Below, piece after piece: positions 7,010 to 42,149 of a stretch of 56,328 nt of DNA. Location of the stretch: positions 1-56,328 of the forward strand of contig CAIVDS010000102.1 of the NCBI GenBank assembly GCA_903904685.1. Reading direction: 5' to 3'. The notes under the pieces were generated by a model, which did not search any database, was not told the origin of the DNA, and saw nothing but the letters and a program-made list of their open reading frames with translations. The translations under genes were made by a program, and so were the position numbers. The DNA is from an uncultured Verrucomicrobiota bacterium. Its GTDB lineage: Bacteria > Verrucomicrobiota > Verrucomicrobiia > Opitutales > Opitutaceae. Each line of letters starts with the position of its first letter. Positions within the stretch are counted from its first letter, which is position 1.

Positions 7010-7027
7010 GGCGGATGGCCTGAGACC

Positions 7028-8224: not shown

Positions 8225-8246
8225 ATTATACGGGGTTGATGACGGG

Positions 8247-10289: not shown

Positions 10290-10425
10290 CCTGCGTGTAC
10301 GCAAAACAAGGAAGCGCGTTTTCCATAGCAACAGGAAAGTAACTGACGCAAATTGATGCCAAAAGATTATTACCAGTTGCGGAAAAGCCGTAAGCTGCTC
10401 AAAAAATCAGACACCACAGGCTTCG

Positions 10426-22942: not shown

Positions 22943-23737
22943 TCAGGATTTCCGCTTCTCCTCCAGCCGGCCAAGCAACCGCAACAGGCCGTCGAGGATC
23001 GTCAGCGGATGCGGCGGACAGCCTGGAATGTAGAGATCGACCGGCACGACCGAAGCCGCCCCGCCCAAGTGCTCAGAATGGCCCACAAAAGGACCGCCTG
23101 AAATCGCGCACGCGCCGACCGCAATGACGATCTTCGGCTCCGGCACGGCTGCCCACGTTTTCTTCAGCGCCAGCTCCATATTTTGGGTGACGGGGCCGGT
23201 GATCAGCAACCCGTCCGCATGCCGAGGTGAAGCCACGAACTGGATACCGAAGCGCCCCAAATCCCAACCGATGGTGCCCAGCACATTGGTGTCGGCCTCG
23301 CAGGCGGCGCAACCGCCCGCGCTCACCTGCCGCAGTCGCAGCGAACGACCGAAGAGCCGCCGCAGCTTCTCGTCGAGCGCCGCGCCAAGGCGCACCTCCT
23401 CGGCCCCTGGATCGCCGAGCAAAAGATCCTCCCGCCAACGCACCGCCATGCGATGGTCGCCCGTCTGTGTGATCGCCTTGGTCGGGCAGACCGCGATGCA
23501 TTCCGCGCAAAAAATACAACGCCCAAGATCGAGCGCGACGGGCCCGCCCGCCGACCGCGTGACCGCCTTGGTCGGACAGACCGGCACGCAGGCGCTGCAT
23601 CCGGCGGCGCACTTGGCGGCGTCCACCCGCAGCGCGCCGCCGTGACGGTCGGGCAGCGCCGGGGCCGGACCGTTCGGATAGGCCATGGTCTCGCAGCCGC
23701 GTTTCAAACGATGGACCAGAGTGTCAAAGACGAACAT
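22943..23737 (-). CDS. Fused ferredoxin and small (NuoB/HyfI-like) subunit of an Ehr-type complex
   Basis: A 264-residue iron-sulfur protein. The N-terminal ferredoxin part binds two 4Fe-4S clusters (Cys43, 47, 50, 54 and Cys74, 77, 80, 84; CIFCAECIAVCP). The C-terminal part is a NuoB/hydrogenase small-subunit fold with proximal-cluster cysteines Cys143, Cys146, Cys210 and Cys240 (GGCAACEADT, VGACAISGGPF, GCPPHPLTIL). In Hyf these are separate proteins (HyfH and HyfI), so this is a natural fusion. It would pass electrons to or from the large subunit on the cytoplasmic face. Last gene of the operon, 15 bases after the large subunit gene. Confidence 0.88.
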   Translation of the reverse strand: MFVFDTLVHRLKRGCETMAYPNGPAPALPDRHGGALRVDAAKCAAGCSACVPVCPTKAVTRSAGGPVALDLGRCIFCAECIAVCPTKAITQTGDHRMAVRWREDLLLGDPGAEEVRLGAALDEKLRRLFGRSLRLRQVSAGGCAACEADTNVLGTIGWDLGRFGIQFVASPRHADGLLITGPVTQNMELALKKTWAAVPEPKIVIAVGACAISGGPFVGHSEHLGGAASVVPVDLYIPGCPPHPLTILDGLLRLLGRLEEKRKS

Positions 23738-23752
23738 GGTGGAGAAGCAGCG

Positions 23753-25234
23753 TTACAAGTCGAAGCCGCAGTAGGAAAGGTTGAAACTCTTGTTGCAGAT
23801 CGGAAAATCCGAGATGGCCGCGCCGCGCAAGGCGAGCGCGAGTCCCGTCCAGTTGTGAAAGGACGGATCGACGATCTTGTAACGGCGGAAGCGGCCGACC
23901 GCATCAGTCAGGGCCACATGGCAAACCTCGCCGCGCCAGCCTTCCACCAATGACACCGCCAGCGTGTCGGGCGCGGGTGCGGTCGGTTCCTGATACAGTT
24001 CTCCGTCAGGGGGAGAGGCCAGCTGATCCAGAAGGAATGCGCCCGAACGCTGAATCTCCAGTGAACGCACGCGGGCTCGGGCAAAGACGTCGCCGCTTGG
24101 CCAGACCACGACGGAAGCCTGGGCGAAACGATGCCAACCCGCCGGGTGGTCGTAGCGCACGTCGCGCACCAATCCGCAGGCGCGAGCCGCCAAGCCGACC
24201 AACCCGATCTCCGCAGCCTGCGAGGGAAACACCGTGCCTACGTCCTCGAAACGGCTGCGGACGGAGGCGGCGTCCCAGAGCCAGGCGACGGCCTGCTCCG
24301 TATCCGCGAGCGCGACTTGCAGCTGCCGAGTCAACCGCGCCGCTCGCTCTGCCTCGAGATCGTGACGACCGCCGCCGGGCCGCACAAGGCCACGACCGAA
24401 ACGGTTGCCGCAGATCAGCGCCGTGAGATTGAGAAAATCGCCCCGAATTTTGCCGCAGGCTGACGAAGTGGGCAGGAACGCGACATCGTTGGCCAGCGCA
24501 CCGAGGTCACCGGTGTGGTTGGCGAGACGCTCAAGCTCGAGCGCGATCGCCCTCAACCATTGGGCGCGAAGCGGGGCCTCGGTTCCGGCGAGGGCTTCCA
24601 TGATCGTCGCGTGGGCCGTGGCATGCGCGATAGTTGCGTCCCCCGCCACGGTTTCCATCTGACTGAGGGTTGCGCGATGCGGACCACCGGCGAGCGCCTC
24701 CTCCACGCCGCGGTGCTGATAGCCGAGGGCGATCTCCAGGTGCAGCACCTCCTCTCCTGCGCATTGGAAACGAAAGTGTCCCGGCTCGATGATGCCGGCA
24801 TGCACGGGCCCGACCGCCACCTCGTGTATTTCGCAGCCATCGACACGGAAGAAATCCCCATTGGTCGGCGCATCGCCCGCCGTGCGTCGCACGGGTTTTA
24901 GCCAAGGGTGTCCTTCCGGTGTGAGACCGTGTTGCTCCCAGACTTCACGCTCAAACAGATGCGCCTGAGGATGCGCCGGTGTCAGCGAATGATAGCCTCC
25001 GGTAAAAGGTCGGCTGCGAGCGGTCGCCAGAGTATTGTCGGCGTCAAAGGCCAGCACGGCCACCAGCCTCGTCGCGCCAGCCTCGGGCACGCCAAACCAC
25101 GCGCATAAGCGCGCGCCACGGGCCAGTTCATTGGCCGCGGCTCGAACAAATTCATCGACCGGCCACTCGGGCACCTCCGCCCAAGGGAGACTGGATGCAT
25201 TGGCCAACAGGGCAAATGGAGTGGAGGCGCTCAT
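23753..25234 (-). CDS. HyfG-like (NuoCD-fused) large subunit without NiFe ligands
   Basis: A 493-residue protein with a NuoC-like N-terminal domain (to about 130; GYHSLTPAHPQAHLFEREVW) and a NuoD/hydrogenase-large domain (about 140-493; FRFQCAGEEVLHLEIALGYQ). The two CxxC motifs that bind NiFe in real hydrogenases are absent. Where RxCGxC is expected the sequence reads METVAGDATIAHATAH (Ala197, Ala200), and where DPCxxC is expected it reads VDPSFHNW, followed by NKSFNLSYCGFDL. This matches the energy-converting-hydrogenase-related (Ehr) families, not active group 4 hydrogenases. The ATG overlaps the upstream stop by 4 bases (25231-25234). The catalytic role is unknown. Confidence 0.87.
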   Translation of the reverse strand: MSASTPFALLANASSLPWAEVPEWPVDEFVRAAANELARGARLCAWFGVPEAGATRLVAVLAFDADNTLATARSRPFTGGYHSLTPAHPQAHLFEREVWEQHGLTPEGHPWLKPVRRTAGDAPTNGDFFRVDGCEIHEVAVGPVHAGIIEPGHFRFQCAGEEVLHLEIALGYQHRGVEEALAGGPHRATLSQMETVAGDATIAHATAHATIMEALAGTEAPLRAQWLRAIALELERLANHTGDLGALANDVAFLPTSSACGKIRGDFLNLTALICGNRFGRGLVRPGGGRHDLEAERAARLTRQLQVALADTEQAVAWLWDAASVRSRFEDVGTVFPSQAAEIGLVGLAARACGLVRDVRYDHPAGWHRFAQASVVVWPSGDVFARARVRSLEIQRSGAFLLDQLASPPDGELYQEPTAPAPDTLAVSLVEGWRGEVCHVALTDAVGRFRRYKIVDPSFHNWTGLALALRGAAISDFPICNKSFNLSYCGFDL

Positions 25235-26673
25235 GGGGCCGGATGAAGCTGTTGCACGGCGGCCTCCCATGCCTCGCGCAGCAGCGGTGGCGTGAAAAGA
25301 CCCAGCCAAAGCGAAAAGCAAAGCAACGCGAGCGGCGGCAGGATCACGCCGGCGGTTTCAACAAAACGTTTGCCCCCCGTTCTCATCGCGGGCCTCGGCC
25401 GGCCATCCACTATGCCAAAGACCACGCGGGTGATCCCGAAGAACGCGAAGAGCAGGCAACCAAGCAACATCGCGATGGCAAAGACATGCCCGGAACCAAA
25501 GCCTGCCTTTACCAGCGCGAGTTCGCTGAAGAACGGCCCAAAAGGCGGACAGGCGGTGACGGCGAACATCCCAGCGACAAAGATCGCCGCCGAGCGCGGC
25601 GTAATCATGGCCATGCCTCGCACCTCGTCCATCGAGGCCGAGCCGGCGGCGCGGCGGATGTTGCCCGCGCTCATGAACAGCGCGCCCTTGGTCAGGCTGT
25701 TGCTCCAGACGTGGAACAAAGCCGCCTTCAAACCGATGCCACCGAAAGCCGCGCCAATGGTCAGGATGCCCATATGCTCGACGCTCGAGTAGGCGAGCAT
25801 GCGCTTGAAATCTCGCGTTCCGAGAAGGAACAACGCGGCCACCACCATCGAGAAAAGCCCGATCGCCAGCAGCGTGCGATCCGCGAGCGCGCCTTCGCCC
25901 GCCGCGCCGACCACCGCCCTCACCCGCAGGATCGCCGTGAACGCCACGGTGGTCACCCCGCCCGCCAGAATCGCCCCCACGATGCCCGGCGCCTCGCCGT
26001 AGGCGTCGGGTTTCCAAGTATGCATCGGTGCCAGGCCCATTTTTGTGCCGTAGCCGACAAGCAACAATACCCACGCGATCAAAACCCACGGGCGCGACAG
26101 TCCGGCCCCCTGCGCCATGAGGCTTGCGAAAGTCAGGTCGCCACTGCCGCCGCTGTGCAACGAGGCATAGCCAAGGCAGAATGAACCCAGCAGTGACAGC
26201 GCGATCCCGGTGCCGCCCACCAGCAGGTATTTCCACGTGGCCTCGAAGGCTCGCGGCGTGCCGTTGAAGTGGAGCAGCGGCACCGCCGCCAAAGTAACCG
26301 CCTCGGTCGCGATCCAAAGCAGCCCGAGATGCCGTGCCTGATGACCTGCGCTCAGCAGGCCCAGTACCGCCAACAGTGCGGCGACAAACACCCGGTTGGA
26401 CCGCTCCGCGCGCACCGCAAGGTAGGAAACCCCGTAGCAGGCGCAGACGAAAAACAGCAGCGACACGGCCGGCAACACCGCCCGCGCCAGCTTATCGAAC
26501 CCCAGCCATGCGTCCGGCGCGACCTCCGGAGGCACAACCAAAAGCCGGAAACAAAGCACGACATGGACCAGGCTGACGGACGGCAGAAACCAGGGCCGTG
26601 TGCGATTGTCGGACCAGGCGGCCGCCAACGCCGCCCCCGCCAGGGGCACGAAGATGAGGAGCAGTGAGATCAT
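25231..26673 (-). CDS. HyfF/NuoN-like proton- or cation-translocating membrane subunit
   Basis: A 480-residue polytopic protein of the Mrp/NuoN antiporter-like family with about 14 predicted helices. Key charged residues expected for ion transfer are visible: Glu124 in WIATEAVTLAA and Lys211 in GYGTKMGLAPMHTWKPDA, then LAYSSVEHMGILTIG and SNSLTKGALFMSAGNI. It belongs to the membrane arm that couples electron transfer or transport to ion movement. It overlaps both neighbours by 4 bases, which argues for stoichiometric expression. Confidence 0.9.
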   Translation of the reverse strand: MISLLLIFVPLAGAALAAAWSDNRTRPWFLPSVSLVHVVLCFRLLVVPPEVAPDAWLGFDKLARAVLPAVSLLFFVCACYGVSYLAVRAERSNRVFVAALLAVLGLLSAGHQARHLGLLWIATEAVTLAAVPLLHFNGTPRAFEATWKYLLVGGTGIALSLLGSFCLGYASLHSGGSGDLTFASLMAQGAGLSRPWVLIAWVLLLVGYGTKMGLAPMHTWKPDAYGEAPGIVGAILAGGVTTVAFTAILRVRAVVGAAGEGALADRTLLAIGLFSMVVAALFLLGTRDFKRMLAYSSVEHMGILTIGAAFGGIGLKAALFHVWSNSLTKGALFMSAGNIRRAAGSASMDEVRGMAMITPRSAAIFVAGMFAVTACPPFGPFFSELALVKAGFGSGHVFAIAMLLGCLLFAFFGITRVVFGIVDGRPRPAMRTGGKRFVETAGVILPPLALLCFSLWLGLFTPPLLREAWEAAVQQLHPAP

Positions 26674-27311
26674 TCGTGAAGCACGGTAAGTTTGCGGGTG
26701 TCGAGAGAGTCGAAGGCGCGCTGGATACGGTCCACGATGATGCCGATGACGAACACGCCCACCGTTACGTCGAGCAAGACGCCCGCCTCCACCATCAGCG
26801 GGGTCGAGCGAATAAGCAGGAGACCAAACAGGTAGATGCCGTTTTCCAAGATCAGATAACCGCAGACCTGCGAGATGGCCTTGACTCGTCCGATGAGCAG
26901 GATGAAGCCGGTCAAAATCGAGGCCATCGCGCCCGGCACCAGAAGTAAACCGGCATGTTCCGGCAGCAGGGGCAGTGACTGCGAAAAGGCCACCGCCGCG
27001 ATCATGCCGCCTGCGCCCAGCAGGAGCGACGGCACGAAGCCGATCAGCGGTTCCAGCTCACGCTCGATGTTCGCCGCCCGCATCGCCCGGCGCAGCAGAG
27101 CGGGGATTACCAGGCCCTTGCCGCCAACGGTCGCCACAACCACCGCCAGCAACATCCAGCTCCAATCGTGCTCCAGTAGCAACGGCATCACACCAAGCAG
27201 CATGCCCTGCGCGGAAACAACCAAGATTAGCGAAGGCAGCCGACTGCTGCCCAAGGCGATCAGGTTCAGCCCCATCGCCAACCCGATCAGCAGATTCAAA
27301 TGGGTGTTCAT
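26670..27311 (-). CDS. HyfE-like (NuoK-related) membrane subunit
   Basis: A 213-residue hydrophobic protein with six or seven helices. It matches the hydrogenase-4 component E family: SSRLPSLILVVSAQGMLLGV at the start and YLILENGIYLFGLLLI in the middle, where the glutamate corresponds to the conserved membrane glutamate of NuoK. MNTHLNLL at 27311 is chosen as start because it overlaps the upstream stop by 4 bases, like its neighbours. It would link the proton-channel subunits to the NuoH-like base. Confidence 0.87.
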   Translation of the reverse strand: MNTHLNLLIGLAMGLNLIALGSSRLPSLILVVSAQGMLLGVMPLLLEHDWSWMLLAVVVATVGGKGLVIPALLRRAMRAANIERELEPLIGFVPSLLLGAGGMIAAVAFSQSLPLLPEHAGLLLVPGAMASILTGFILLIGRVKAISQVCGYLILENGIYLFGLLLIRSTPLMVEAGVLLDVTVGVFVIGIIVDRIQRAFDSLDTRKLTVLHE

Positions 27312-28216
27312 GCGGCCCCTCCCTTCCATGCGACCAGCAGCGCAAACAGGCATAGCAGCACGGCCGTCGTGAGCAGAAGAGGCACGCGCTGGAAGGCAAA
27401 CCTCGCCAGCAGCGACTCAACCAAACCGACCCCAACGGTGGCAGTCAGCACGCCTCCCAGCAACACGCCCGTCGCCGCAAAGGGAGACAAGTCGCCCATC
27501 GGCAGGACCGCCTCGGTCAGCAGTACGGAGAAAAGCAGCAGCTTCATCGACGCCCCGTGCAGAATCACGGCAAGCGGCGGACCGCTGTGGTCGAGGATCA
27601 TCGCCTCGTGAATCATGGTCAGTTCCAAATGGGTGTTGGGATCGTCAAACGGCACCCGGCAGTTTTCCGCCAGCAGCACGGTGAAAAGCCCCGCCGCGAG
27701 CAGCACCGCCCCCGCCCCGGCCGACGGCGCCAGCATCGTCGCCAGCGAAACACTGCCGGTCTGCACGCAGAGGGAAAGCATGGCCGCCACCATGGCGGCT
27801 TCCGCGAGGACGGCGTAGCTCACCTCGCGCGCCGCTCCCATGCCTTCGAAGGCCGAGCCTGTTTCCATGGCTGCCCATGCGGTGCAAAACCGCGCCAGCG
27901 CCAAAAGATAAAGCATCAGCAGCACATCGCCTCGGAAACTCAACGCCGCCCCGGCGGGGCCGAGCGGCACGAGAATCACCGCACCCAGCAGCGCCACCCA
28001 CGCAACCGCCGGGCCGATCACAAAACCGGGCGACGCCAGCGTGCTCATCACCACGCTCTTCCGCCATAGACGCGCCAGGTCGTAGTAGAGCTGGAGCACA
28101 GGCGGGCCGCGGCGACCGGCAACCCAAGCCTTCACCTTGTTGATGATACCGGGCAGCAGCGGGGCGAGGATGAGCCACCACGCCAGACGGAAAATCAATT
28201 CCAACACCGTGTTCAT
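27308..28216 (-). CDS. HyfC/NuoH-like membrane anchor subunit
   Basis: A 302-residue protein with about eight helices, of the complex I subunit 1/HyfC family. It has the conserved early segment INKVKAWVAGRRGPPVLQLYY and the cytoplasmic loop ENCRVPFDDPNTHLELTMIH, which in complex I and group 4 hydrogenases docks the iron-sulfur and large subunits. This is the strongest single marker that the membrane module is coupled to the soluble HyfG/HyfI-like part. Four-base overlaps on both sides. Confidence 0.92.
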   Translation of the reverse strand: MNTVLELIFRLAWWLILAPLLPGIINKVKAWVAGRRGPPVLQLYYDLARLWRKSVVMSTLASPGFVIGPAVAWVALLGAVILVPLGPAGAALSFRGDVLLMLYLLALARFCTAWAAMETGSAFEGMGAAREVSYAVLAEAAMVAAMLSLCVQTGSVSLATMLAPSAGAGAVLLAAGLFTVLLAENCRVPFDDPNTHLELTMIHEAMILDHSGPPLAVILHGASMKLLLFSVLLTEAVLPMGDLSPFAATGVLLGGVLTATVGVGLVESLLARFAFQRVPLLLTTAVLLCLFALLVAWKGGAA

Positions 28217-30165
28217 GGTTTACCTCCAAACAAGACCAAGCAGCCGAGGGCGGCAATACCTGCGACAACATAAAGAACATAAGCCTGCAACCGGCCGTGT
28301 TGCAGACGACGGACCGCGGACGAAACCCGGAGGACTCCCTCGCCCATCGGTGCGATCACCCGTTCCAGAACAGTTTCAGGCATACGTTCCTGGCGAAACG
28401 CACTCGCCGGCAACACGCCCCGCAGCCGACGCAGACTGCGCTCAGGCTGAAGAATCCACGAGAACCAACCGACGCCGATGCCGGCAAAAGAGCCACCGGT
28501 ATATTGCATCCGCGCCGTGGGCGTTGCGTAACCGCAGTCCCAGGTCAGGCCGCGTTGCACACCGTTGGTCTGTGCTTTCCACCACAGACCTGCCGCCACA
28601 CCCACGACCGCCAGCGCCAAGGCGACATGCACCAGTCCCAAAGTCACCAGCGGCGCCGGTGACTCCGCCAGCGCCCACGCCGGATGCCAGCTCCCGGCCG
28701 CCCGCGTTACCACCGGCCAGACCAATGCCGGCACGAGCCCGATCACCGCACAGACAACCGCCAGTGCGATCATCGGCCCGAGCATCCATCGCCCACATTC
28801 ATGCGCCCGCATGGCCGTCTGCGTGCGAGGAGCACCGAGGAAAATCATCGCCCCCGCCTTTGCGAAGCTGGCGAGCGCAAGAGCTCCCGCCAGAGCCAGC
28901 AGGATGACGGCGGGAATGGCCGCCCATGCCGCCGGCGCCTTGCTGGTGATGGCCCCAAGAAGCCCGAGATACACCAGCCACTCGCTCACGAAGCCATTCA
29001 GCGGCGGCAGACCCGACACCGCCAAGGCGCCAAGCGCAAAAAGTCCGGCAGTCCACGGCATCGCACGCCACAACCCGCCCAGCCGGCTCATTTCCCGCGT
29101 GCCCGTGGCATGCAGCACCGAACCGGCGCTGAAAAACAACAATGATTTGAACGCACCGTGGTTCCACACGTGAAGCAAGGCTCCCGCCAAGGCCAGCCGT
29201 CCCCAAGGCGCGTCACCCTGCGTGACAGCGAGCAACGCGCCGCCGAGGCCAATCAAGATGACGCCTACGTTTTCCACCGAGCAATACGCGAGCAGCCGCT
29301 TGAAATCATTCTGCGCAAAGGCAAAGGCGATGCCGAGCAGCGCGCCCAGCGAACCCAACCCGATCACCACCCAGCCGGCGGCCGGCGGCACGGGCAGCCA
29401 ACCGTTGAAACGCATGATCCCATAAACGCCCATCTTGAGGGCCACGCCCGACAACATGGCGGAAACATGGCTCGGCGCATTGGCATGAGCGGAGGGCAGC
29501 CACACGTGAAGCGGGAACACGCCGGCCTTCACGCCAAAGCCAAACAGCGCCAGCCAGAACAGCGGGGCCAGGCCCGCCTGTTCCCTCATGGCGGGGCCCA
29601 GGTCCCAATTGCCGTTGTGAGACGCCAGCGTGGCGAACAAGGCGAAGAGCACGAGCGTACCGACGTGCGATGCCGCCAGATACAGCCAACCGGCCGCGCG
29701 CACCGCCGGTCGTTTGTTTTCAAGAGTGATAAGGAAATAGGCGCTGACCGTAAATAGCTCCCAGGCGATGAGAAAATGGAGCCCGTTGGAAAGCGTCAGC
29801 ACCAGTCCCATGCACAAGACCAGCGAACTCCACCACGCGCGACCGCGCGGCGCAGAAACAGGAAACTGCCGGTCCGACCAATACCCGCGGGCATACAGGG
29901 CGCCGCTCGCGCCCACCACGCACAGCAGCGCAAGAAACAGGGCGCTCAGCGCGTCGAGGCGCAAATGCAGCCGTTCGCCGCCCACGGTTATGTCACTCAG
30001 CCATTCCCAATCGGTGGAGCCCAGCAGCACCCAAAGCGAGGCTCCCAACGCGGCAGCCGTGCCGATCACGGTCAGCGTAAGCCAAGTCCGCGGCCAGCGG
30101 AGTCCGCTGACAATCCCAGCCACAAGACATCCTGCGGCAACCAGCAAGAGCACACCGGGGCTCAC
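28213..30165 (-). CDS. HyfB/NuoL-like antiporter-like subunit (copy 1)
   Basis: A 650-residue polytopic protein of the hydrogenase-4 component B/NuoL family. It shows the helix-5 glutamate in HFLIAWELFTVSAYFLI, the lysine in GFGVKAGVFPLHVWLPSAHA, then SHVSAMLSGVALKMGVYG and HVWNHGAFKSLLFFSAGSV. The C terminus TWDCGYATPTARMQYTGGSF is typical of HyfB. It starts with GTG 30165, overlapping the HTH-EIIA stop. It is clearly paralogous to the product of 30949-32895, with long shared blocks through the whole length, so one arose by duplication. Confidence 0.92.
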   Translation of the reverse strand: MSPGVLLLVAAGCLVAGIVSGLRWPRTWLTLTVIGTAAALGASLWVLLGSTDWEWLSDITVGGERLHLRLDALSALFLALLCVVGASGALYARGYWSDRQFPVSAPRGRAWWSSLVLCMGLVLTLSNGLHFLIAWELFTVSAYFLITLENKRPAVRAAGWLYLAASHVGTLVLFALFATLASHNGNWDLGPAMREQAGLAPLFWLALFGFGVKAGVFPLHVWLPSAHANAPSHVSAMLSGVALKMGVYGIMRFNGWLPVPPAAGWVVIGLGSLGALLGIAFAFAQNDFKRLLAYCSVENVGVILIGLGGALLAVTQGDAPWGRLALAGALLHVWNHGAFKSLLFFSAGSVLHATGTREMSRLGGLWRAMPWTAGLFALGALAVSGLPPLNGFVSEWLVYLGLLGAITSKAPAAWAAIPAVILLALAGALALASFAKAGAMIFLGAPRTQTAMRAHECGRWMLGPMIALAVVCAVIGLVPALVWPVVTRAAGSWHPAWALAESPAPLVTLGLVHVALALAVVGVAAGLWWKAQTNGVQRGLTWDCGYATPTARMQYTGGSFAGIGVGWFSWILQPERSLRRLRGVLPASAFRQERMPETVLERVIAPMGEGVLRVSSAVRRLQHGRLQAYVLYVVAGIAALGCLVLFGGKP

Positions 30166-30869
30166 GCGGTCGCCTCCGGTTTTGAAATGCCTGCGGACGC
30201 CGCGTCCACCGCCATCACCGCGTGGAACAGTTCCTCGTCCGCAGCCCCCTTTGTCACAAGTTCGCGGAACGGCCCACGCGTCAGCAACCGGCTGAGCCGC
30301 CCGAGCAGGTCCAGATGCGCCCGTGGCGAAGGCGCGATGAAGAACATGAGCCGGGAAACCGGCACATCATCCACGCATGGTTCCACCTGAGCCAGCGGTT
30401 CGCGCAGAAAAATCAGAGCGACCGTGCCGGCCTCGCGACCAAGCGCGATGCGCTTGGCGGGGTGCGGCAGGGCAAAACCTCCGCCCACGGGTGCCATCGT
30501 CACGCCGCCGTTCGCACGCAGCCTCTGTCCGATCATCTGGCGAACGGGAGGCGGCGTTCCCGGAAGCGCATTCACGATCCGCTCTAGCACGTTCGTCAAG
30601 TCGGCAGCCGGCACGTCGCGCCAGATGCCGCCCGCACGCAGCAGGGGTTCCAGCCTCCAGCCTGAAACCATCGCCGTGTTTTCAGGCGCAAGGAAACCGG
30701 CCTGCGTGGCGAGCCCGCGCTCGGCCGCCCATTGCGCCACCTGCGCCCGGTCGAACAGCAACCGGCCGCGGTCGGGGGTGTGAGGAAGGCCTTCATTGCG
30801 TATCCAGTCATCGATGATCTTCTCAGCGACTCCAAAAGATTCCGCCAGTTGGACAAGGTTCAGATACAT
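30162..30869 (-). CDS. HTH (excisionase/MerR-like) - PTS EIIA-like regulatory protein
   Basis: A 235-residue protein. Residues 1-55 form a small winged-helix of the excisionase/MerR type (LVQLAESFGVAEKIIDDWIR, then GRLLFDRAQVAQWAAE). Residues about 75-225 form a PTS EIIA type 2 / PtsN-like domain with the phospho-histidine motif GGFALPHPAKR (His136). PtsN-type EIIA proteins regulate potassium transport and stress systems according to phosphorylation by the PTS. Embedded in the operon by a 4-base overlap with the HyfB-like gene, it is likely to regulate either the complex or a transporter, or to bind DNA. No EI, HPr or sugar EIIB/EIIC gene is nearby. Confidence 0.85.
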   Translation of the reverse strand: MYLNLVQLAESFGVAEKIIDDWIRNEGLPHTPDRGRLLFDRAQVAQWAAERGLATQAGFLAPENTAMVSGWRLEPLLRAGGIWRDVPAADLTNVLERIVNALPGTPPPVRQMIGQRLRANGGVTMAPVGGGFALPHPAKRIALGREAGTVALIFLREPLAQVEPCVDDVPVSRLMFFIAPSPRAHLDLLGRLSRLLTRGPFRELVTKGAADEELFHAVMAVDAASAGISKPEATA

Positions 30870-30948
30870 GGGGATTGGGGGAAATTAAAGTGCCCTTGAA
30901 ATTCAGTCACCCACAATATGATCGGCGACGTGCGGACGGTTCGTAGTT

Positions 30949-32895
30949 TCATGGCCTGCCTCCCGTCAGTATTATGCAGGCCAGCACCGCAAGCCCGATC
31001 ACCACATAAAACACATAAGCCTGCACGCGGCCGTGCTGGAGGCGACGCATGGCCGTCGAGAGTCGCATGGCCACGTCACCGATCGGCGCGACGACATGCT
31101 CTAGAACCGTTTCGGGAGTGTGCTCCGTCCATTTCGCACGAGCAGGGAAAAACGCGACCGAGCGTTCGTCATGCCGAACGGGTCGCAGAATCCAGTCGAA
31201 CCATTCCGTGATGATGCCGGCAAAGGAGCCGGCGGTGTATTGCATGCGGGCGGTGGGCGCCTTGTAGCCGCAATCCCAGGTCAGCACCCGTGTGAGCGCG
31301 ATCCGGTTTGCCCGCCGCCACAGCCACCAAGCCGCCAGCCCCGCCGCGATCGCCAACGCCATATGAAAACACCCCAGCGCAAGCAGCGGTGCGGGCGGAA
31401 TCGCGCCACCCCAGGCAGGACGCCAGGCCCCAAGCACCCGATCAAGCGCCGGCCAGAAGATCACCGGCGCAAGCCCGATCACCACGCAACCTCCGGCCAG
31501 CAGCAGCATGGAGCCGCGCATCGCAGGTCCGGATTCGTGGGCGCGTGACGCGGCCGGCGAACGCGGTGCGCCGAGAAACACCACGCCGCAGACTTTGACA
31601 AAACACGCCAGCGCCAGCGCCCCGGTTACGCCCAATAAAATCGCCGCCGGGATGGCGGCCCACGCCGTGGGTCCGTGCGTCACGGTCGCGTCAAACAGAC
31701 CGAGAAAAACCAGCCATTCGCTGACAAACCCATTGAGCGGTGGCAGGCCGGAAATCGCCGCTGCGCCCAAGGCGAACAATCCCGCTGTCCATGGCATCGT
31801 GCGCCACAGACCACCCAGTTGACTCATCTCGCGAGTGCCGGTGGCGTGCAGCACAGAGCCGGCGCCTAGAAACAGCAGCGCCTTGAAAAGCCCGTGGTTC
31901 CACACATGCAGGAGACCACCGGCGAACGCCAGTCGGCCCCATACCGTGTCTCCCTGCTCCACCGCAACGAGCGCAAACCCGAGCCCGATGAGAATGATGC
32001 CGATGTTCTCGACACTGTGATAGGCCAGCAGGCGCTTGAGGTCATGCTGCCCCAGCGCAAAGGCCACGCCCAGCACCGCGCTTACGACTCCCAGCACCGC
32101 CACCACCCACCCTGCGCCAACAGGGACTGGCAGCCAGCCGCTGAAGCGCACGAGCCCGTAGATGCCGATCTTAAGCGTCACCCCCGAAAGCATGGCGGAG
32201 ACATGGCTCGGAGCGCTGGCGTGCGCAGACGGCAGCCAGACATGGAACGGAAACACGCCGGCCTTCAGACTGAAACCGAAGAGCGCCAGCCAGAACAGCG
32301 GAGCCAACTCCGCACGCTCGCGCATCGGCCCCAGTTCCCAACTCCCGGTGCGCGCCGCCAGCAGGGTGAAAAAAGCAAACAGGGCCAGGACGGCCGCGTG
32401 CGAAGCCGCAAGATACAGCCACCCCGCCGCACGCACCTCGCGCCTTGGACGGTCCAGCGTGACTAAAAAATACGCGCTGAGGGTGAACAATTCCCACGCG
32501 ATGAGAAAGTGCAGCCCGTTGCAGACGAGCAGCACGAGCCCAAGGCTCGCCACCAGCGCACTCCACCACCCGCGGCCGGTGCCGGCGGAGCGCGGATGGG
32601 CGCGATCCGTCCAATATTCCCGCGAATACACGGTTGCCGCCCCGCCCACCACGCAGAGCAAGACGAGAAAAAAAGCGCTGAGGCTGTCGAGCCGAAGATG
32701 CAGAGACTCGCCGCCCACATGAAAGGCGCTTCGCCACTCCCAAGGCATCCCGCCGGCCAGCACCGAGACGGCGGCCGCGAACGCCGTTCCCTGGCCCGCG
32801 AGCATCGCCACCAACCAGAGTCGCGGCGCAAACCGTCCGCTCAGCATGCCTGTTAGCATGCTGCCGGCGGCAACGAGCATGAGGGCGTCTATCAT
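30949..32895 (-). CDS. HyfB/NuoL-like antiporter-like subunit (copy 2), paired with SulP
   Basis: A 648-residue NuoL-family protein. It has the same motifs as copy 1: HFLIAWELFTLSAYFLV, GFSLKAGVFPFHVWLPSAHA, SHVSAMLSGVTLKIGIYGL, HVWNHGLFKALLFLGAGSV and TWDCGYKAPTARMQYTAGSF. Its ATG overlaps the stop of the SulP gene (ATGA, 32892-32895), while 79 bases separate it from the HTH-EIIA gene. The tight coupling to an anion transporter resembles the pairing of NuoL-like DabB with DabA in bicarbonate-accumulating DAB systems, here with SulP instead of DabA (inference). Confidence 0.9.
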   Translation of the reverse strand: MIDALMLVAAGSMLTGMLSGRFAPRLWLVAMLAGQGTAFAAAVSVLAGGMPWEWRSAFHVGGESLHLRLDSLSAFFLVLLCVVGGAATVYSREYWTDRAHPRSAGTGRGWWSALVASLGLVLLVCNGLHFLIAWELFTLSAYFLVTLDRPRREVRAAGWLYLAASHAAVLALFAFFTLLAARTGSWELGPMRERAELAPLFWLALFGFSLKAGVFPFHVWLPSAHASAPSHVSAMLSGVTLKIGIYGLVRFSGWLPVPVGAGWVVAVLGVVSAVLGVAFALGQHDLKRLLAYHSVENIGIILIGLGFALVAVEQGDTVWGRLAFAGGLLHVWNHGLFKALLFLGAGSVLHATGTREMSQLGGLWRTMPWTAGLFALGAAAISGLPPLNGFVSEWLVFLGLFDATVTHGPTAWAAIPAAILLGVTGALALACFVKVCGVVFLGAPRSPAASRAHESGPAMRGSMLLLAGGCVVIGLAPVIFWPALDRVLGAWRPAWGGAIPPAPLLALGCFHMALAIAAGLAAWWLWRRANRIALTRVLTWDCGYKAPTARMQYTAGSFAGIITEWFDWILRPVRHDERSVAFFPARAKWTEHTPETVLEHVVAPIGDVAMRLSTAMRRLQHGRVQAYVFYVVIGLAVLACIILTGGRP

Positions 32896-34724
32896 GGTTT
32901 CCGAGTTGGAACCTCTTCGGTCGGGCGGTCGAGCGTCTTCAGGATGCGCTGAGCCCGATCGAGCGCCTCGGTGAGTTCCTTGCGCGCGGCCTCGACGGCA
33001 TGACGCTCGCTGAAGAGCTGCTCATGCGGCTCGGGGCTCTCCTGCACCGGCGGCAGCTTGAGGATTTCCCGCGCCCGGGCGAGGGCAGCGGTGATGTGCG
33101 GACAGACATTCTCAGCTCCCAGACGGTCAATAAAACCCGAGTTGATCATGACCGAAAGCGGCTGGGTGTGGGGCGCGCTGAGAATGAGATGCTTGCCCTT
33201 GGACTGGAGTTTGACGCGCAAATCTTCCAGCGCATGCAGACCCGTGGCATCCATCGCCAGAACTTTTCGCACACGAAGAATAAGAATGACGGGCTCAAGC
33301 TTGGCCCGCTTCAACTCGTCATCGAGTTTGTCCACCACCCCGAAGAAGAACGCTCCGAACACGCGGAAAATAAGCACGCCCTCCGGCACGACTTTACCCA
33401 CCAGTGAATGCTGTGATCCTTCGGTTTCGGTGGACTCGTCCACCGCGGTGATCTGGGAAGTCTCGGAGATGCGCTTGACCATCAACAACGCCGCCAAGAC
33501 CACTCCCACCTCGACCGCCAGGGTCAGGTTTGTCAGCACCGTAAGCGCGAAAGTGGCGAGGAAAACCGACGAGTCGCTGAACGGCCATTTTGTCAGCCGG
33601 GCGAATTGCTTCCAAGATACCATGCGATAGGCCGCCGCCACCAGAACGGCGCTGAGCGTCGCCAGCGGAATATACTGAATCAGGGGCGCCGCCGTGAGCA
33701 GCAGAATCAGGATGAGCAGCGCATGCGTGAGACCGGCCACCGGAGTGCGTGCGCCTGAGCGCACATTGAGCACCGAGCGCGCCACCGCACCCGTCACAGG
33801 AAGGCAACCGAACAGTGGCCCCACCATGTTCGCCACACCCTGCCCTACCAGTTCCTGGTTTGAGTCATGCCGGTCGTCGAGCAGACCATCCGTCACCACG
33901 GCCGCCAGCAAAGCCTGCATCGCGACGAGCATCGCGATGGTGAACGCGGGTTGGATCAGTTCGTGAATCGTCCCCCATTCCACCGAAGGCAATTGCAGCA
34001 CGGGCAATCCGCCCGCCAACGCACCGTAAGCCGAGCCGATGGTGGCAACTCCCCACTGGGTGTGCAGCCCGAAAATGGCGGCGACCACGGTAGCAATGAT
34101 CAGACCGGCCATTGATCCGGGGACGTAGCGCGAAAGTCTGGTCGGCCACAGTCCGATCAAGGCCACCGAAAAGACCGCCAGACCGATGGTAGGCCAGTGG
34201 ACCGCGTCCAGATTCGCCGCCAACATCCGGATCTTCCCCACAAAATCCACCGGCAGTTTGTCCACATTCAGACCAAGGAAACTCTTGATCTGGGAACTCA
34301 TGATCAGCACGGCAATACCCTTGGTGAATGCGCGTGAAACCGGATAGGGAATGAACCGGATGATCGATCCCAGCTTGGCAAAACCCATCACGCACAGCAT
34401 CGCCCCCGCCATGATCGTGCAGAGAAACAACCCGTTGTAGCCATAGCCCTGCATGATGCCGTAGCTGATGATGACAAACGCTCCGGTCGGCCCGCCAATC
34501 TGCACCCTCGATCCGCCCAGCAACGCGATGATTCCGCCGCCGATGATGGCCGTGTAGAGGCCCATCTCCGGTGTGACACCCGAGGCGATGGCGAAGGCCA
34601 TCGACAGAGGGAAGGCCAGAATCATCACGTTCAGCCCGGCCCCCAAATCGGCGCGAAACTGCTTTGCCGAGTAGTCGCGGAGCGCCTCGATTATCTTCGG
34701 TCGGAATGGAATCGTGATATTCAT
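32892..34724 (-). CDS. SulP-family inorganic anion transporter with STAS domain
   Basis: A 610-residue transporter. The N-terminal 400 residues hold the SulP membrane fold: FRADLGAGLNVMILAFPLSM, VTPEMGLYTAIIGGGIIALL, GGPTGAFVIISYGIMQG and PVTGAVARSVLNVRSGARTP. A STAS domain (about 435-545) follows, with VLAMDATGLHALEDL; a charged coiled-coil tail ends the protein. SulP proteins carry sulfate, bicarbonate or other anions, often by sodium or proton symport. Here it is first gene of the Ehr-like operon and overlaps the NuoL-like gene, which favours bicarbonate or ion coupling over plain sulfate uptake. The AT-rich stretch 34808-34845, about 85-120 bases upstream, probably holds the operon promoter. 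Confidence 0.92.
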   Translation of the reverse strand: MNITIPFRPKIIEALRDYSAKQFRADLGAGLNVMILAFPLSMAFAIASGVTPEMGLYTAIIGGGIIALLGGSRVQIGGPTGAFVIISYGIMQGYGYNGLFLCTIMAGAMLCVMGFAKLGSIIRFIPYPVSRAFTKGIAVLIMSSQIKSFLGLNVDKLPVDFVGKIRMLAANLDAVHWPTIGLAVFSVALIGLWPTRLSRYVPGSMAGLIIATVVAAIFGLHTQWGVATIGSAYGALAGGLPVLQLPSVEWGTIHELIQPAFTIAMLVAMQALLAAVVTDGLLDDRHDSNQELVGQGVANMVGPLFGCLPVTGAVARSVLNVRSGARTPVAGLTHALLILILLLTAAPLIQYIPLATLSAVLVAAAYRMVSWKQFARLTKWPFSDSSVFLATFALTVLTNLTLAVEVGVVLAALLMVKRISETSQITAVDESTETEGSQHSLVGKVVPEGVLIFRVFGAFFFGVVDKLDDELKRAKLEPVILILRVRKVLAMDATGLHALEDLRVKLQSKGKHLILSAPHTQPLSVMINSGFIDRLGAENVCPHITAALARAREILKLPPVQESPEPHEQLFSERHAVEAARKELTEALDRAQRILKTLDRPTEEVPTRKP

Positions 34725-34907: not shown

Positions 34908-35282
34908 CTACAGCTTGGCCTTGCGCTTGCGCGCTGGTTTTTCAACTGGAGCCACGATGGGTTGCACGTCGGCCCAGAGAAACACCCCGCAGTTGGGGCA
35001 CACGCCGAAGCGCCCTGGCGCCGCCAGTTCGCCGCACAGTCCGCGCGGCAGTTTCAGGTGGCAGGCGCTGCAGCTTTCGCCGTTGACCTTGACCGCGCTG
35101 GGCTGGCCTCGGGCCGCGAACCGGTCGTGGTAACCCAGAATCGAGTTCGGCAACCGCGCCCGCAAGGCCTCGATCTGTTTTTGAAGCAGGATAGATTCCG
35201 GATTTTCCCGGGGCAGGCTGCGGATCTCCTGATTCATGTGATTGAGGGAACGTAACTGGCTCAAGACTTCGGCGGAATACAT
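34908..35282 (-). CDS. Small coiled-coil / C4 zinc-ribbon protein
   Basis: A 124-residue protein. The N-terminal half is a short helical region (VLSQLRSLNHMNQEIRSLPR, ESILLQKQIEALRARL), and the C-terminal half a C4 zinc ribbon: SCSACHLKLPRGLC then GVCPNCGVFLW. It ends in a basic tail (KPARKRKAKL). This is the CT398/DksA-like zinc-ribbon type often found in bacterial regulatory proteins, with unknown function. The start at 35282 (MYSAEVLSQ) is chosen because upstream codons are not protein-like. It is divergent from the sigma-54 activator gene and upstream of the SulP operon on the same strand. Confidence 0.75.
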   Translation of the reverse strand: MYSAEVLSQLRSLNHMNQEIRSLPRENPESILLQKQIEALRARLPNSILGYHDRFAARGQPSAVKVNGESCSACHLKLPRGLCGELAAPGRFGVCPNCGVFLWADVQPIVAPVEKPARKRKAKL

Positions 35283-35454
35283 ACCGGTCTCTATGCATCG
35301 CTTCGGCCAAGTCGGCCCATCATTCCGTAACTCACTCACTGGTGAACTCCTAAAAATATCGGCACCCGCCCTACCATGCTTATCCGACCTCGAAATTACC
35401 AGGAATGCGCAATACTTGCAGACACTATGCGCATAATATGCACTCTTAACCTCA

Positions 35455-36819
35455 ATGAACCCGGCCAAAATCACCATCGTCGTGCTGGATCAAAACTCCG
35501 GCGACCTCGCATTGCTGTCCGACGCACTGTCGGCGGGCGGATATCACGTCCTGCCGGCTACGACGGAAGCACAGGTGCTGCGCCATGTCCGTCAGGAACC
35601 CGTCAACTTGGTCGTCAAAGGATTCGAGGCGGGCCGGGTTGATGTGATCGCGCTGATGCGAAAAGTGCGCGCCCTGTCCCGCGATACCGAGTTCGTGCTC
35701 TGCGGCCGCGGCGGTACCATCGCCATCGCGGTGGACGCCGTTCACCAAGGCGCCTGCGATTACCTCGTCAAACCGGTCGCTCCCATCGCGCTCCGCGGGG
35801 CGGTGCAGAAGGCGCTGGAGCGGCAGGCCTTGGTCGCCGAGGACCCGAAACTCCGGCAAAGCCTGAAACGCCGCGCAAACCCCGATGTCTTTGTGGGCAC
35901 CAGCGCGGCCATGCGCGCCGTCTCCGAAACCCTCGCCGAAGTCGCCACCACCGACGTGCCCGTGCTCGTCACCGGTGAAAGCGGCACCGGCAAGGAGTTG
36001 GTCGCGCGGGCGCTCCACGATCGCAGCCGCCGGCAGGCAGGCCCCTTCGTTGCCATAAACTGCGCCGGCCTCACGGACTCGCTCCTCGAATCGGAACTCT
36101 TCGGCCATGTGCGCGGCGCCTTCACCGGCGCGATCAACGACCGGCCCGGAGCCTTCAAGCTGGCCGGCGCCGGCACTCTTTTTCTCGACGAAATCGGCGA
36201 CCTTCCACCCAAAGGCCAGGGTGATTTGCTGCGCATTTTGGAGGATGGCGTTTACCGCCCCGTGGGCAGCCCCGAGTCCGTGCGGGCCGATGTGCGCATC
36301 GTCGCCGCGACCAACCGCGATCTCGCGCGATTGGCCAACGAGGGTCGCTTCCGCTCCGATCTGCTCTACCGGCTCAATATCGTGGAACTGTTTCTGCCGC
36401 CGCTCCGCGACCGTGTTGAGGATATCCCCGCGCTAATCAGCTCTTTCAACACCCATTTTTGCGCCCGGCATGATCGCCGGCCAAAGACGTTCACACCCGA
36501 GTTCCTCGCGCAAGTCGCGCTTCATCCCTGGCCCGGCAACATCCGACAGCTGCGCAATCTGATTGAGCGACTCGTCGTCACGGTGCGCTCCTCGACGATT
36601 GGCGTCGAGCATGCGCCACCGCTGCCAGCCATGGAGTCTTCCTCGGCACCCAAGCCACTTCTGGTCGTGTCGGCCGGTATGACCATCACCGAGGTCGAAT
36701 CCCTGATGATCCGGCGCACGCTGGAAAAAGTGACCTCCCAGCGCAGCGAGGCCGCCCGCCTTCTCGGCCTCAGTCGCCGGGCGCTTCATTACAAGCTGAA
36801 GGCGCTCAAGCTGGAATGA
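35455..36819 (+). CDS. Sigma-54-dependent NtrC-family activator with defective receiver
   Basis: A 454-residue regulator. The N-terminal domain (about 5-125) is receiver-like, but the phospho-acceptor position in NLVVKGFEAG is Lys55 and the acidic pair is reduced to Asp12 (VVLDQNSGD), although a lysine remains in YLVKPV. The AAA+ domain (about 145-375) is intact: Walker A GESGTGKELVARAL, sigma-54 contact loop GAFTGA, Walker B LFLDEIGDL, and an arginine-finger region FRSDLLYRLNI. A Fis-type HTH closes it (RSEAARLLGLSRRALHYKLK). It should activate sigma-54 promoters but by a phosphorylation-independent or unusual signal. Targets are unknown; I found no convincing -24/-12 element in the leaders of this window. 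Confidence 0.9.
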   Translation: MNPAKITIVVLDQNSGDLALLSDALSAGGYHVLPATTEAQVLRHVRQEPVNLVVKGFEAGRVDVIALMRKVRALSRDTEFVLCGRGGTIAIAVDAVHQGACDYLVKPVAPIALRGAVQKALERQALVAEDPKLRQSLKRRANPDVFVGTSAAMRAVSETLAEVATTDVPVLVTGESGTGKELVARALHDRSRRQAGPFVAINCAGLTDSLLESELFGHVRGAFTGAINDRPGAFKLAGAGTLFLDEIGDLPPKGQGDLLRILEDGVYRPVGSPESVRADVRIVAATNRDLARLANEGRFRSDLLYRLNIVELFLPPLRDRVEDIPALISSFNTHFCARHDRRPKTFTPEFLAQVALHPWPGNIRQLRNLIERLVVTVRSSTIGVEHAPPLPAMESSSAPKPLLVVSAGMTITEVESLMIRRTLEKVTSQRSEAARLLGLSRRALHYKLKALKLE

Positions 36820-37457: not shown

Positions 37458-38195
37458 TTAGAACAACAGTTTTATACCCGCCACCGCGCTCAGGCCAAGC
37501 GCGAGGTTTTCAAACAACTTCTGGTTGATCTTCGGCAGCAGCTTCCGACCCAGCATCGCGCCAAGGAACACCGCCGGCGCCAGCATGAGATTAAACCCAA
37601 AACTCCCCGTCGTGATCAGCCCGAGATTCACCATAAACGGCACCTTGAAACAATTCAGCAGCAGGAAAAACACCGCACCCGTCCCCACGTATTCCATCTT
37701 CGGAAGTCGCATCGCCAGCAGATAAATTGCCATAAGCGGACCCGCCGCATTCGCCACCAACGTGGTGAACCCCGCCAGCACCCCCACCGTCGGCGCAAAC
37801 CACGCACCATGATCGTCGATCACGCCCGGCTTCGCCCGAGCACGCCGCCACATCTGCACCGATACCATTACGAGAATGATCGCACCAATCAACACGCGCG
37901 CCTGCCGGTCGTCGATCCGGTCCATCGCAAAATAACCCAGCACCACCCCGGCCGCCGTCCACGGCATCAGTCGCCACACATGCGCCCATTTCGCGTGCGT
38001 CCGATACGACCACACCGCGACAACATCCCCGAAGATCAGCAATGGCAGCACAAACCCGCTCGACTGCTTCGCCGGGATCACGTTGGCAAACATCACAACG
38101 AACAGCATCCCCAACCCCGATATGCCTGTCTTGGACACACCCACGAGAAGCGCACCTACAATCACCAGCATCAATTGCCACGGCTCAAGATTCAT
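37458..38195 (-). CDS. TSUP-family (TauE/SafE) sulfite/sulfonate exporter-like membrane protein
   Basis: A 245-residue protein with about eight helices. It contains the TSUP signatures [15 protein letters not shown] near the start and [20 protein letters not shown] in the second half. TSUP proteins move sulfite, sulfoacetate or related anions, but substrates cannot be read from sequence. Its ATG overlaps the recF stop (38192-38195), so it is translated from the recF transcript, which is an unusual partnership. Confidence 0.88.
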
Positions 38196-39274
38196 ACCAC
38201 CGCCTCCTTCGCAAACGTTCCTCCCTCCACGTTGAACACCTCCCATGCGCCAAGCTCCGCATCTGGCAGGCTCGTGCCGGTCGCGATCACCTGCCGCTCC
38301 ACGCCCAGCGTCGCCCAAAACCGCCGCCGCCGTGTCGGATCAAGTTCGCCCAACACGTCGTCCGCCAGCAACAACGGCTCCACGCCCGCCCGCTCTCGGA
38401 AAAAACTCACCTGCGCCAGCCGCAACGCCAACACCAGACTGCGCTGTTGTCCTTCCGACCCGAAATCCCGCGCCGCCCGTTCCTCCAGCGTGAACGCCAG
38501 ATCATCGCGATGCGGCCCGGCGATCGTCGTGCGAAACTGCTGGTCGCGTCCGCGGTTCTTCGCAAACACTCCCGCCCACGCCGCCGCGTTCTCCGCCGTG
38601 AGGTCCGGCGCCAGTCGCAATCCGGCCCGCTCCGCGTCGTCGGAGATTTGCTCGTAGGCAGCGGTCACGTGCCCCGCTAGCTCCGCCACGCCCGCCGCCC
38701 GCTTTGCCTGCAAATCCGCCGCCGCCGCCGCCAACGGACGCTCAAACGCCGCCAGTTCGCCGGCCTCCGCGACGCGCTTGAGCAACGCATTCCGCTCGGC
38801 TAGCGCCTTGTGGTAGGCCTGCAACGCCTGCAAATACGACGTGTCCATCGCCGCAAGGGTGAAGTCGAGCCACCGCCGACGCAGACTCGGCGCCCCGCGG
38901 ATGAGCTGCTGGTCCTGCGATGAAAACACCACCGCGGGAAACCTCCCGAGGTAGTCGCCCAGCCGGGTGACTTTTTCGCCGTCGCACCACACTTCCTTGC
39001 CGCCGGGACGCAGCTTGATGACGAGCTTCGTCACCCCGAGTTTTTCGTGCTCAAACTCGCACGCCACCGCCGCTTCAGACTGGCCGTGCGCGATCAGAAT
39101 CTTGGTCTCGGCCGTGCGGAAGGATCTCAATGCGCTCACGAAGCCAGCCGCCTCCAGTAAATTTGTTTTTCCCTGCCCGTTGTCGCCCACGAAAAATTGT
39201 TGCCGTCCGTTAAACTCAAGGTCGGCAAAGGCAATGTTTCGAAAGTGCTGAAGCGTGATACGGCGAAGACGCAT
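38192..39274 (-). CDS. recF: DNA replication and repair protein RecF
   Basis: A 360-residue SMC-like ATPase that loads RecA at gaps. Start 39274 ([16 protein letters not shown]) gives the typical RecF N terminus. Walker A is [14 protein letters not shown], the signature region is [15 protein letters not shown], and Walker B is [13 protein letters not shown]. recF usually sits in a dnaA-dnaN-recF-gyrB cluster; none of those genes is here, so it has been relocated in this genome. Its stop overlaps the TSUP gene. Confidence 0.92.
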
Positions 39275-42114: not shown

Positions 42115-42149
42115 AAAAATGAAGTGGGCCGATCTCAGTGTCCGCCGGT

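Follow-up and report, generated by a model that had tools for sequence, protein, structure and literature searches.

Why should an operon for a complex-I-like membrane complex begin with the gene of an anion transporter and carry, in its middle, a regulator with a phosphotransferase-type domain? The question is raised by contig CAIVDS010000102.1 (C102 in our numbering) of assembly GCA_903904685.1, a 3.2 Mb genome in 114 contigs from an uncultured Verrucomicrobiota bacterium of the Opitutaceae; its 56,328 nucleotides, analysed as a whole, are referred to as the window. Nine open reading frames (ORFs) on the minus strand, running from 34724 down to 22943, encode in this order a SulP anion transporter, a HyfB/NuoL-like subunit (HyfB2), a helix-turn-helix (HTH) protein fused to an EIIA domain of the phosphotransferase system (PTS; HTH-EIIA), a further HyfB (HyfB1), HyfC, HyfE, HyfF, and the large (EhrL) and small (EhrS) subunits of an energy-converting-hydrogenase-related (Ehr) complex. 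An earlier note on this DNA took SulP and the adjacent NuoL-like protein for a pair and, by inference, likened them to DabA-DabB, with bicarbonate or sulfate as the suggested anion. Our analysis upheld that the unusual operon is real and that a link between SulP and the complex was rightly suspected, while the pairing with the NuoL-like protein and the bicarbonate reading were not sustained. The operon as a whole is read here as encoding an Ehr redox-driven cation pump with a PTS-linked regulator and an optional, probably H+-uncoupled SulP tied to the pump, a reading that we judge probable, if only just.

The Ehr complex and its HyfB duplicate

The survey comprised 80 named loci, which are the best 80 of 93 matched by two peptide patterns, and 36 further regions hand-picked from the list of matching genomes. 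Six duplicate loci were removed from the locus table, and the counts of neighbouring genes refer to 52 close loci whose first Ehr gene is preceded by 2 kb of DNA or more, 24 mid and 5 far loci; L024 (EhrL beyond the stretch taken) and L023 (contig edge) stand outside this table and inside the SulP rows. Genome-level searches covered 387 sampled genomes of the phylum. The papers cited by PMC number were available in part, and statements drawn from them refer to the accessible text.

The best match of EhrL (23753..25234, minus strand as for all genes of the operon; PF00346 96 bits, PF00329 26 bits; its ORF reaches 25321) in the PDB was HycE of formate hydrogenlyase (5.9e-40). No Ni-Fe CxxC was present at either site in the EhrL of the window, nor was any seen in 116 EhrL rows, of which 86 were close, 25 mid and 5 far (the L178 protein ends before the C-terminal site, which is uncovered there), and conserved GD[ST] and NKSFNxSY motifs occupy the positions of the Ni-Fe sites. 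The large subunit is thus, as the earlier note held, predicted to be unable to hold Ni-Fe. EhrS (22943..23737, 264 amino acids) fuses a HyfH-like 2x[4Fe-4S] part with a HyfI/NuoB-like part (PF01058 93 bits, Fer4 matches). Its eight ferredoxin-type cysteines were found in 83/83 close rows and the four NuoB-type cysteines in 71-77 of 83, the misses not having been individually inspected, and on its sequence the protein provides the ligands of one N2-type and two ferredoxin-type clusters. The membrane part comprises a HyfC/NuoH-like subunit (27308..28216, 302 amino acids; PF00146 97 bits), a HyfE-like subunit (26670..27311, within an ORF reaching 27353; 65 bits with the NCBIfam model of the hydrogenase 4 membrane subunit, cut-off 136) and a HyfF-like antiporter-type subunit (25231..26673, 480 amino acids; 156 bits with PF00361 and 241 bits, against a cut-off of 543, with the NCBIfam model of hydrogenase 4 subunit F). 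Family matches thus bear out the complete complex-I-like module of HyfB, C, E, F, G and fused H/I that had been read from the letters. A group-4 hydrogenase/NuoD-like large subunit without Ni-Fe cysteines, a NuoB-type small subunit and antiporter-like and NuoH-like membrane subunits are encoded in one operon, and by every sequence feature testable here the complex is of the Ehr type.

The genes are tightly packed. Six junctions are 4-base overlaps (SulP/HyfB2, EIIA/HyfB1, HyfB1/HyfC, HyfC/HyfE, HyfE/HyfF and HyfF/EhrL), EhrL and EhrS are separated by 15 bases and HyfB2 and EIIA by 79, where the HyfE ATG at 27311 and the EhrL ATG at 25234, both internal to longer ORFs, are taken as starts. The ORF coordinates hence agree with the earlier count of nine genes with seven of eight junctions being overlaps or a 15-base gap. 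Moreover, the gene order HyfC-E-F-L-S was repeated across the surveyed loci, which excludes a chance arrangement.

The second NuoL-like protein is, on its sequence, a HyfB duplicate belonging to the complex. HyfB2 (30949..32895, 648 amino acids; PF00361 165 bits) and HyfB1 (28213..30165, 650 amino acids, GTG start) share 64% identity over 645 residues and match the NCBIfam model of hydrogenase 4 subunit B with 526.1 (HyfB2) and 484.7 bits, both below the cut-off of 667. A tree of 130 HyfB rows placed those from close loci in two clades of 41 rows each, HyfB2 in front of EIIA and HyfB1 in front of HyfC, with the copies of L123 and L117 left unresolved. The acidic, lysine and histidine residues of the pumping path are retained, in both copies of the window as in the rows at large: E135, K211, H330, H334, K338 and E393 were present in 130/130 rows and K242 in 122/130, positions whose equation with named NuoL residues (including E135 with NuoL Glu144) is presumed from motif and place. 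The close loci carried two HyfB copies in 26 cases, one in 25 and none detected in one (L130); the single copy preceded EIIA in 8 loci and stood directly before HyfC in 17. Two copies in tandem were seen in 6/24 mid loci. With HyfF, the operon of the window encodes three antiporter-like subunits.

Other arrangements of the Ehr genes were also observed. At L130, from the metagenome bin LacPavin_0419, the operon begins with HTH-EIIA-HyfC. In genome G015 (L024:15277-19901 and L029:91-8107) a second complete Ehr set of HyfB, C, E, F, L and S, 33-43% identical to the first, is nested between hyfF and ehrL of the first set; L089 and L072 show a partial version of such nesting, and L142 has a second Ehr set downstream.

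The HTH-EIIA regulator as the conserved partner

The partner that is conserved with the complex is the EIIA-HTH regulator rather than SulP. The protein of the window (30162..30869, 235 amino acids) taken alone fell just under the Pfam cut-offs for both of its domains (EIIA 26.5 versus 27, HTH 20.2 versus 27), and both domains were found in 28/28 relatives at E ≤ 0.01. Its profile matched PtsN chains with 1.9e-24, and with its structural model (mean predicted local distance difference test score 90.7) the best Foldseek match was PtsN (3urr, 2.8e-06). His136, which occupies the active-site position and is the putative phosphorylation site (codon at 30462..30464, checked), and His185 were invariant in all 28 rows. 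The earlier proposal of an EIIA-HTH regulator in the same operon as the complex was confirmed: with EIIA scored by BLAST at E ≤ 1e-6, at which divergent copies may be missed, the gene lay within the operon in 51/52 close loci (the exception being L112), 16/24 mid and 0/5 far loci. A gene for HPr is present in the genome of the window, and given this and the retained His136, PTS control of the operon is plausible from sequence.

The genome-level survey gave a similar picture, although co-occurrence was here tallied by eye and the HTH-EIIA profile, being derived from Ehr-adjacent proteins, is biased to them. A strong profile match (E ≤ 1e-70) was obtained in 48/387 genomes, 46 of which also had EhrL at E < 1e-90; the two without it (G119 and G139) represent one family. 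Of the 44 top-scoring genomes for EhrL (at least 613 bits), 41 had HTH-EIIA, but of the 64 below them that still had EhrL at E < 1e-90 just 5 did. It hence marks one branch of the Ehr complexes, not all of them.

Further EIIA proteins were met beside the Ehr genes. Five loci (L071, L118, L128, L142 and L165) carry a second HTH-EIIA subtype, 26-31% identical and starting with MQL or MKL, upstream of HyfB2, which looks like a duplication of EIIA-HyfB pairs. In the fold search, the EIIA model matched, besides PtsN, the cytoplasmic domains of the SLC4 anion exchangers AE1 and AE2, and the SLC4 superfamily is related to SulP.

SulP, its marks and the explanations weighed

SulP (32892..34724, 610 amino acids; PF00916 280.7 bits, PF01740 44.3 bits) is a SulP/SLC26 anion transporter with a STAS domain. 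An intact SulP was the first gene in 13/52 close loci, in 7/26 with two HyfB and 6/26 with one or none (Fisher p=1.0); the six were all loci with one HyfB. It was found at 0/24 mid and 0/5 far loci. The gene is therefore absent from 39 of the 52 close and all 29 more distant loci. The earlier note had named a lack of conservation of the SulP/NuoL-like pair with the complex as refuting its reading, and for the pair that refutation holds. SulP is optional and not a core subunit. Remnants were seen at several loci, some of which come from metagenome bins, so that single remnants may be assembly faults: L063, one of the 52, keeps residues 7-114 only, L066 has the STAS end alone, in front of HyfB2 and following a gene 76% identical to the zinc-ribbon gene that precedes SulP in the window, and L072 has a STAS fragment behind EhrS; the L079 SulP is truncated by the contig edge. 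Nine sampled genomes had a close EhrL (above 900 bits), four of them with a SulP of at least 57% identity, four with no SulP match at threshold and one with a 41% match elsewhere. SulPs of at least 69% identity occurred only in genomes with a close EhrL (3/3, in the 387 genomes). In the tree, HyfB2 rows with and without SulP were intermixed, and the groupings of SulP and HyfB2 agreed for L164/L095/L167 and for L073/L088. Old presence followed by repeated loss appears the simplest reading of these patterns, with repeated gain as the alternative. Among ten genes lying just upstream of the first operon gene in some other loci, no other anion transporter was found in the place of SulP; two had EIIA domains, one was without a family and seven were unrelated.

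The functional tie between SulP and the locus, suspected in the earlier note, is supported by two marks of the protein. One of them is Gln270 in transmembrane segment 8 (TM8; codon at 33915..33917, checked), which aligns with Glu347 of SULTR4;1, with the Na+-binding Asp of BicA and with the Glu of SLC26Dg at the cation-coupling site. In SULTR4;1, the E347Q exchange leaves about 40% of the activity and a transport that hardly responds to a two-unit pH gradient (PMC8298490). Gln was found in 11/11 rows of the SulP clade of the window (support 100/100), all from Ehr loci, with ten SulPs in first-gene place and that of L073 encoded on the opposite strand, downstream of EhrS. The five Ehr-linked rows of a second clade (L024, L099, L108, L119 and L139) have Glu, and 12/12 unlinked SulPs examined have Glu or Asp. 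We also considered that Gln270 goes with HyfB2, which fails at L087 and L135, where Gln occurs without HyfB2, and at L073 with its displaced SulP; by the alignment the residue follows the SulP clade, not HyfB2.

The other mark is a C-terminal tail. Linked SulPs run about 50 residues past the STAS domain and contain a helix motif (residues 566-598, 32931..33029 in the window), which AlphaFold2 models, with low to moderate confidence, as a single helix preceded by a loose linker. The motif was present in 15 of the 16 linked orthologues (not in L087), from which the L112, L113 and L114 SulPs (23-28% identity, other strand) are excluded as paralogues, and also in the truncated L079 protein. None of 12 unlinked SulPs and none of the four paralogues examined had it, nor did any other frame among 8,621 ORFs of the loci. 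L179, the sole unlinked row within the second (Glu) clade, lacks the tail. Independently of the pattern, SulP was matched in 77/387 genomes, and only four alignments pass residue 579 of the SulP of the window (reaching 599-610), namely those of the window, L164, L167 and L024, all Ehr-linked; 12 of the other 73 SulP genomes had their surroundings checked, and no Ehr genes lay within the 12 kb taken. At L087, which holds the only Ehr-linked full SulP without the tail, a gene for an EIIA-domain protein of 332 amino acids (L087:1436-2434) overlaps the start of SulP.

Concerning the substrate, the NCBIfam models ranked DauA (447 bits, cut-off 614) before generic SulP (359.5, cut-off 380.45) and BicA (255.6, cut-off 880). 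Arg316 aligns with Arg393 in TM10 of SULTR4;1 and with Gly in BicA, which leans against bicarbonate and does not settle the matter. The genome had no match to DabA (PF10070; 2/14 control genomes match) and none to RuBisCO, and contains one beta carbonic anhydrase. Its one PF00384 match (37.3 bits), the sole molybdopterin-family match, was read as NuoG beside NuoH of an ordinary complex I; no formate dehydrogenase was found, and formate as an electron donor was rejected on this ground. The gene content therefore points to neither CO2 concentration nor formate oxidation as an evident purpose of the system.

In the mechanism that we propose, EhrS would take electrons from a low-potential soluble donor and hand them on to an acceptor, most likely a quinone, where EhrL meets HyfC, and the energy released would drive cations (H+ or Na+) outward via the antiporter-like subunits, as their homology suggests. 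The second HyfB may lengthen or vary the membrane arm. HTH-EIIA could sense PTS phosphorylation (the phosphoenolpyruvate (PEP)/pyruvate or nitrogen state) at His136 and thereby set the expression or activity of the pump. SulP would most likely move a substrate or counter-anion without H+ coupling, be it an organic dianion, a formate-like anion, sulfate or bicarbonate, and the C-terminal helix is the probable tether between SulP and either the EIIA protein or the complex.

Several points weigh against this reading. EIIA was not seen at threshold in 8/24 mid and 5/5 far loci, and transcription control by HTH-EIIA is a proposal from its domains. Neither electron donor nor acceptor was found in the genome, whose only molybdopterin-family match is the presumed NuoG, and ion pumping by Ehr complexes is itself inferred and not demonstrated in the accessible text of PMC7894505, PMC6349859 and PMC10284858. 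The tail motif was written after the linked rows had been viewed, it is missing from the Gln-clade SulP of the Ehr-linked L087, and its helix is modelled at low to moderate confidence only. Since the Gln/Glu split follows two clades it may represent one event, and since Glu is kept in the five linked SulPs of the other clade, lost H+ coupling is no general rule among linked SulPs.

How, then, do other explanations of SulP fare? A DabA-DabB-like unit of SulP and the NuoL-like protein, driving bicarbonate or sulfate uptake together with the complex, would fit the 4-base SulP/HyfB2 overlap, present in the window and in L095, as well as a SulP family that includes bicarbonate and sulfate transporters (PMC10880623, PMC8298490). 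It is nevertheless very unlikely: SulP is as frequent with one or no HyfB (6/26) as with two (7/26), the genome has no DabA or RuBisCO match and does have a beta carbonic anhydrase, and HyfB2 is a HyfB duplicate retaining the TM5 Glu (position 135, in 130/130 HyfB rows), where a DAB partner would be expected to show a replacement, as in DabB2 with its Ile151 (PMC13144422). The independence of SulP from HyfB2, the HyfB2 residues and the absence of DabA led us to reject the analogy drawn in the earlier note, and a tempting reading is removed as unsupported. Bicarbonate as such is likewise not favoured, with 255.6 versus 880 bits for the BicA model, Gln in place of the Asp of BicA and Arg316 where BicA has Gly.

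SulP could also, as a possible though not probable role, serve the redox partner of the complex as an anion channel or exchanger, supplying or removing the anionic substrate of this partner. The presumed role of the formate channel FocB in the hyf operon of E. coli would be a parallel. The placement of SulP in a hyf-like operon, the Gln at the coupling site, which suggests uncoupled transport, the transport of formate and oxalate by SLC26 proteins (PMC8298490) and the C4-dicarboxylate transporter DauA as the closest named model all point the same way; however, the genome yielded no formate dehydrogenase-type protein besides the PF00384 match read as NuoG, and the ten upstream genes scanned in other loci included no other anion transporter. 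That SulP is an unrelated, hitch-hiking first gene whose tail and Gln are neutral features of its clade seems unlikely. Its absence from 39/52 close loci and its decay in some would agree with this, and the tail and Gln each mark clades and hence few independent events, but the tail is common to Ehr-linked SulPs of two clades with different coupling-site residues, the unlinked L179 inside the Glu clade lacks it, and SulPs of at least 69% identity are confined to genomes with a close EhrL (3/3 in 387). The farthest-reaching form of the reading that we prefer makes SulP a built-in anion-conducting module which has given up cation coupling (Glu to Gln), with its helix docked on EIIA or the Ehr arm and its flux set by the complex and PTS phosphorylation; we consider this quite improbable as it stands. 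If true, it would mean an anion transporter dependent on a complex-I-like pump and unrelated to DabA and the cyanobacterial NDH-1 CO2 systems.

The preferred reading of a PTS-linked pump with an optional SulP bears on Ehr complexes in general, which are widespread and without a proven function, and for which the branch-specific regulator offers a handle. A need for the pump is probably signalled by the state of the PTS (PEP/pyruvate or nitrogen). The tail helix and the Glu-to-Gln change turn a loose operon linkage into testable claims of docking and uncoupled transport, and if the tail docks, this would be a new way of tying anion transport to a complex-I-like machine.

Neighbouring genes and comparison with known systems

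Directly upstream of SulP lies a gene for a small zinc-ribbon protein (34908-35477, minus strand; PF02591-like, 24 bits versus a cut-off of 29.1); in several loci (L020, L066, L098, L122 and L135) it likewise precedes HyfB2 or SulP. The operon is flanked by a sigma-54 (NtrC-type) activator with a receiver domain (P0011, 35455-36819, plus strand) and a PAS histidine kinase (P0012, 20264-22939, plus strand); the kinase was found again in only 7 of the 54 close loci with sufficient flanking DNA, the activator in 3/16. Sigma-54 control of the operon was considered and set aside; a -24/-12 scan gave 20 matches versus 29 expected by chance; a looser rule gave one candidate upstream of the operon among 9 in the whole window. 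Elsewhere in the window, positions 5780-15628 hold a signalling cluster of three histidine kinases (two with GAF domains, one with seven transmembrane segments), a weak receiver/GAF protein and a FadL-type outer-membrane protein, and at 10426-12144 acyl-transferase-like and methyltransferase domains are combined in one protein. A TauE/SafE-family transporter (37458-38318, minus strand), some 2.7 kb away from the operon start, is bordered by RuvC and an SMC-N-like gene, and a frame of 1003 amino acids with ankyrin repeats, TPR and DUF1266 occupies 39331-42342 (minus strand).

Among known systems, the Ehr complexes of Geobacter sulfurreducens (GSU0739-45), Margulisbacteria and comammox Nitrospira (PMC7894505, PMC6349859, PMC10284858) share with the operon of the window the group-4-hydrogenase-like large and small subunits free of Ni-Fe ligands and the NuoL-, HyfC-, HyfE- and HyfF-like membrane subunits. 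The operon differs from them in its EIIA-HTH, two HyfB, fused ferredoxin-NuoB small subunit and optional SulP, none of which is mentioned in the accessible text of these papers, which is likewise silent on SulP or sulfate permease. Formate hydrogenlyase-2 (FHL-2)/hydrogenase-4 (Hyf; PMC7384014) has the same HyfB, C, E, F, G, H and I-type subunits and extra HyfB-like membrane copies, HyfD and HyfF being extra versions of HyfB, and also a nearby sigma-54-type activator gene, HyfR in Hyf and P0011 in the window. The operon of the window departs from Hyf in lacking a Ni-Fe site, with none of the four Ni-Fe-binding cysteines of HyfG, in a genome in which formate dehydrogenase was not found, and in having no HyfD by name but a second HyfB.

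HTH-EIIA shares with PtsN/EIIA-Ntr the EIIA fold and two conserved histidines, His136 of the active site and the likewise invariant His185; unlike PtsN, it bears an excisionase/MerR-like HTH at its N-terminus, and its gene is part of an Ehr operon. With DauA and the SULTR/SLC26 proteins, SulP has in common the core of 14 transmembrane segments, the STAS domain and, as in SULTR4;1, the Arg of TM10, whereas it differs in the TM8 Gln in place of Glu, in the additional tail helix and in scoring below the DauA cut-off. The DAB complex (PMC13144422) resembles the operon in a NuoL-like gene beside a gene handling an inorganic anion; unlike DAB, the genome has no DabA (PF10070), and its NuoL-like protein, a duplicate of HyfB, has retained the residue lost in DabB2. 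By the sequence criteria examined, the system is thus not hydrogenase-4, the DAB complex, BicA or DauA. Our literature search, with subscription papers outside its range, returned no paper linking SulP or EIIA to Ehr operons, and in the literature searched the operon is a previously unreported variant of Ehr, distinguished by its EIIA-HTH regulator, HyfB duplicate and optional SulP.

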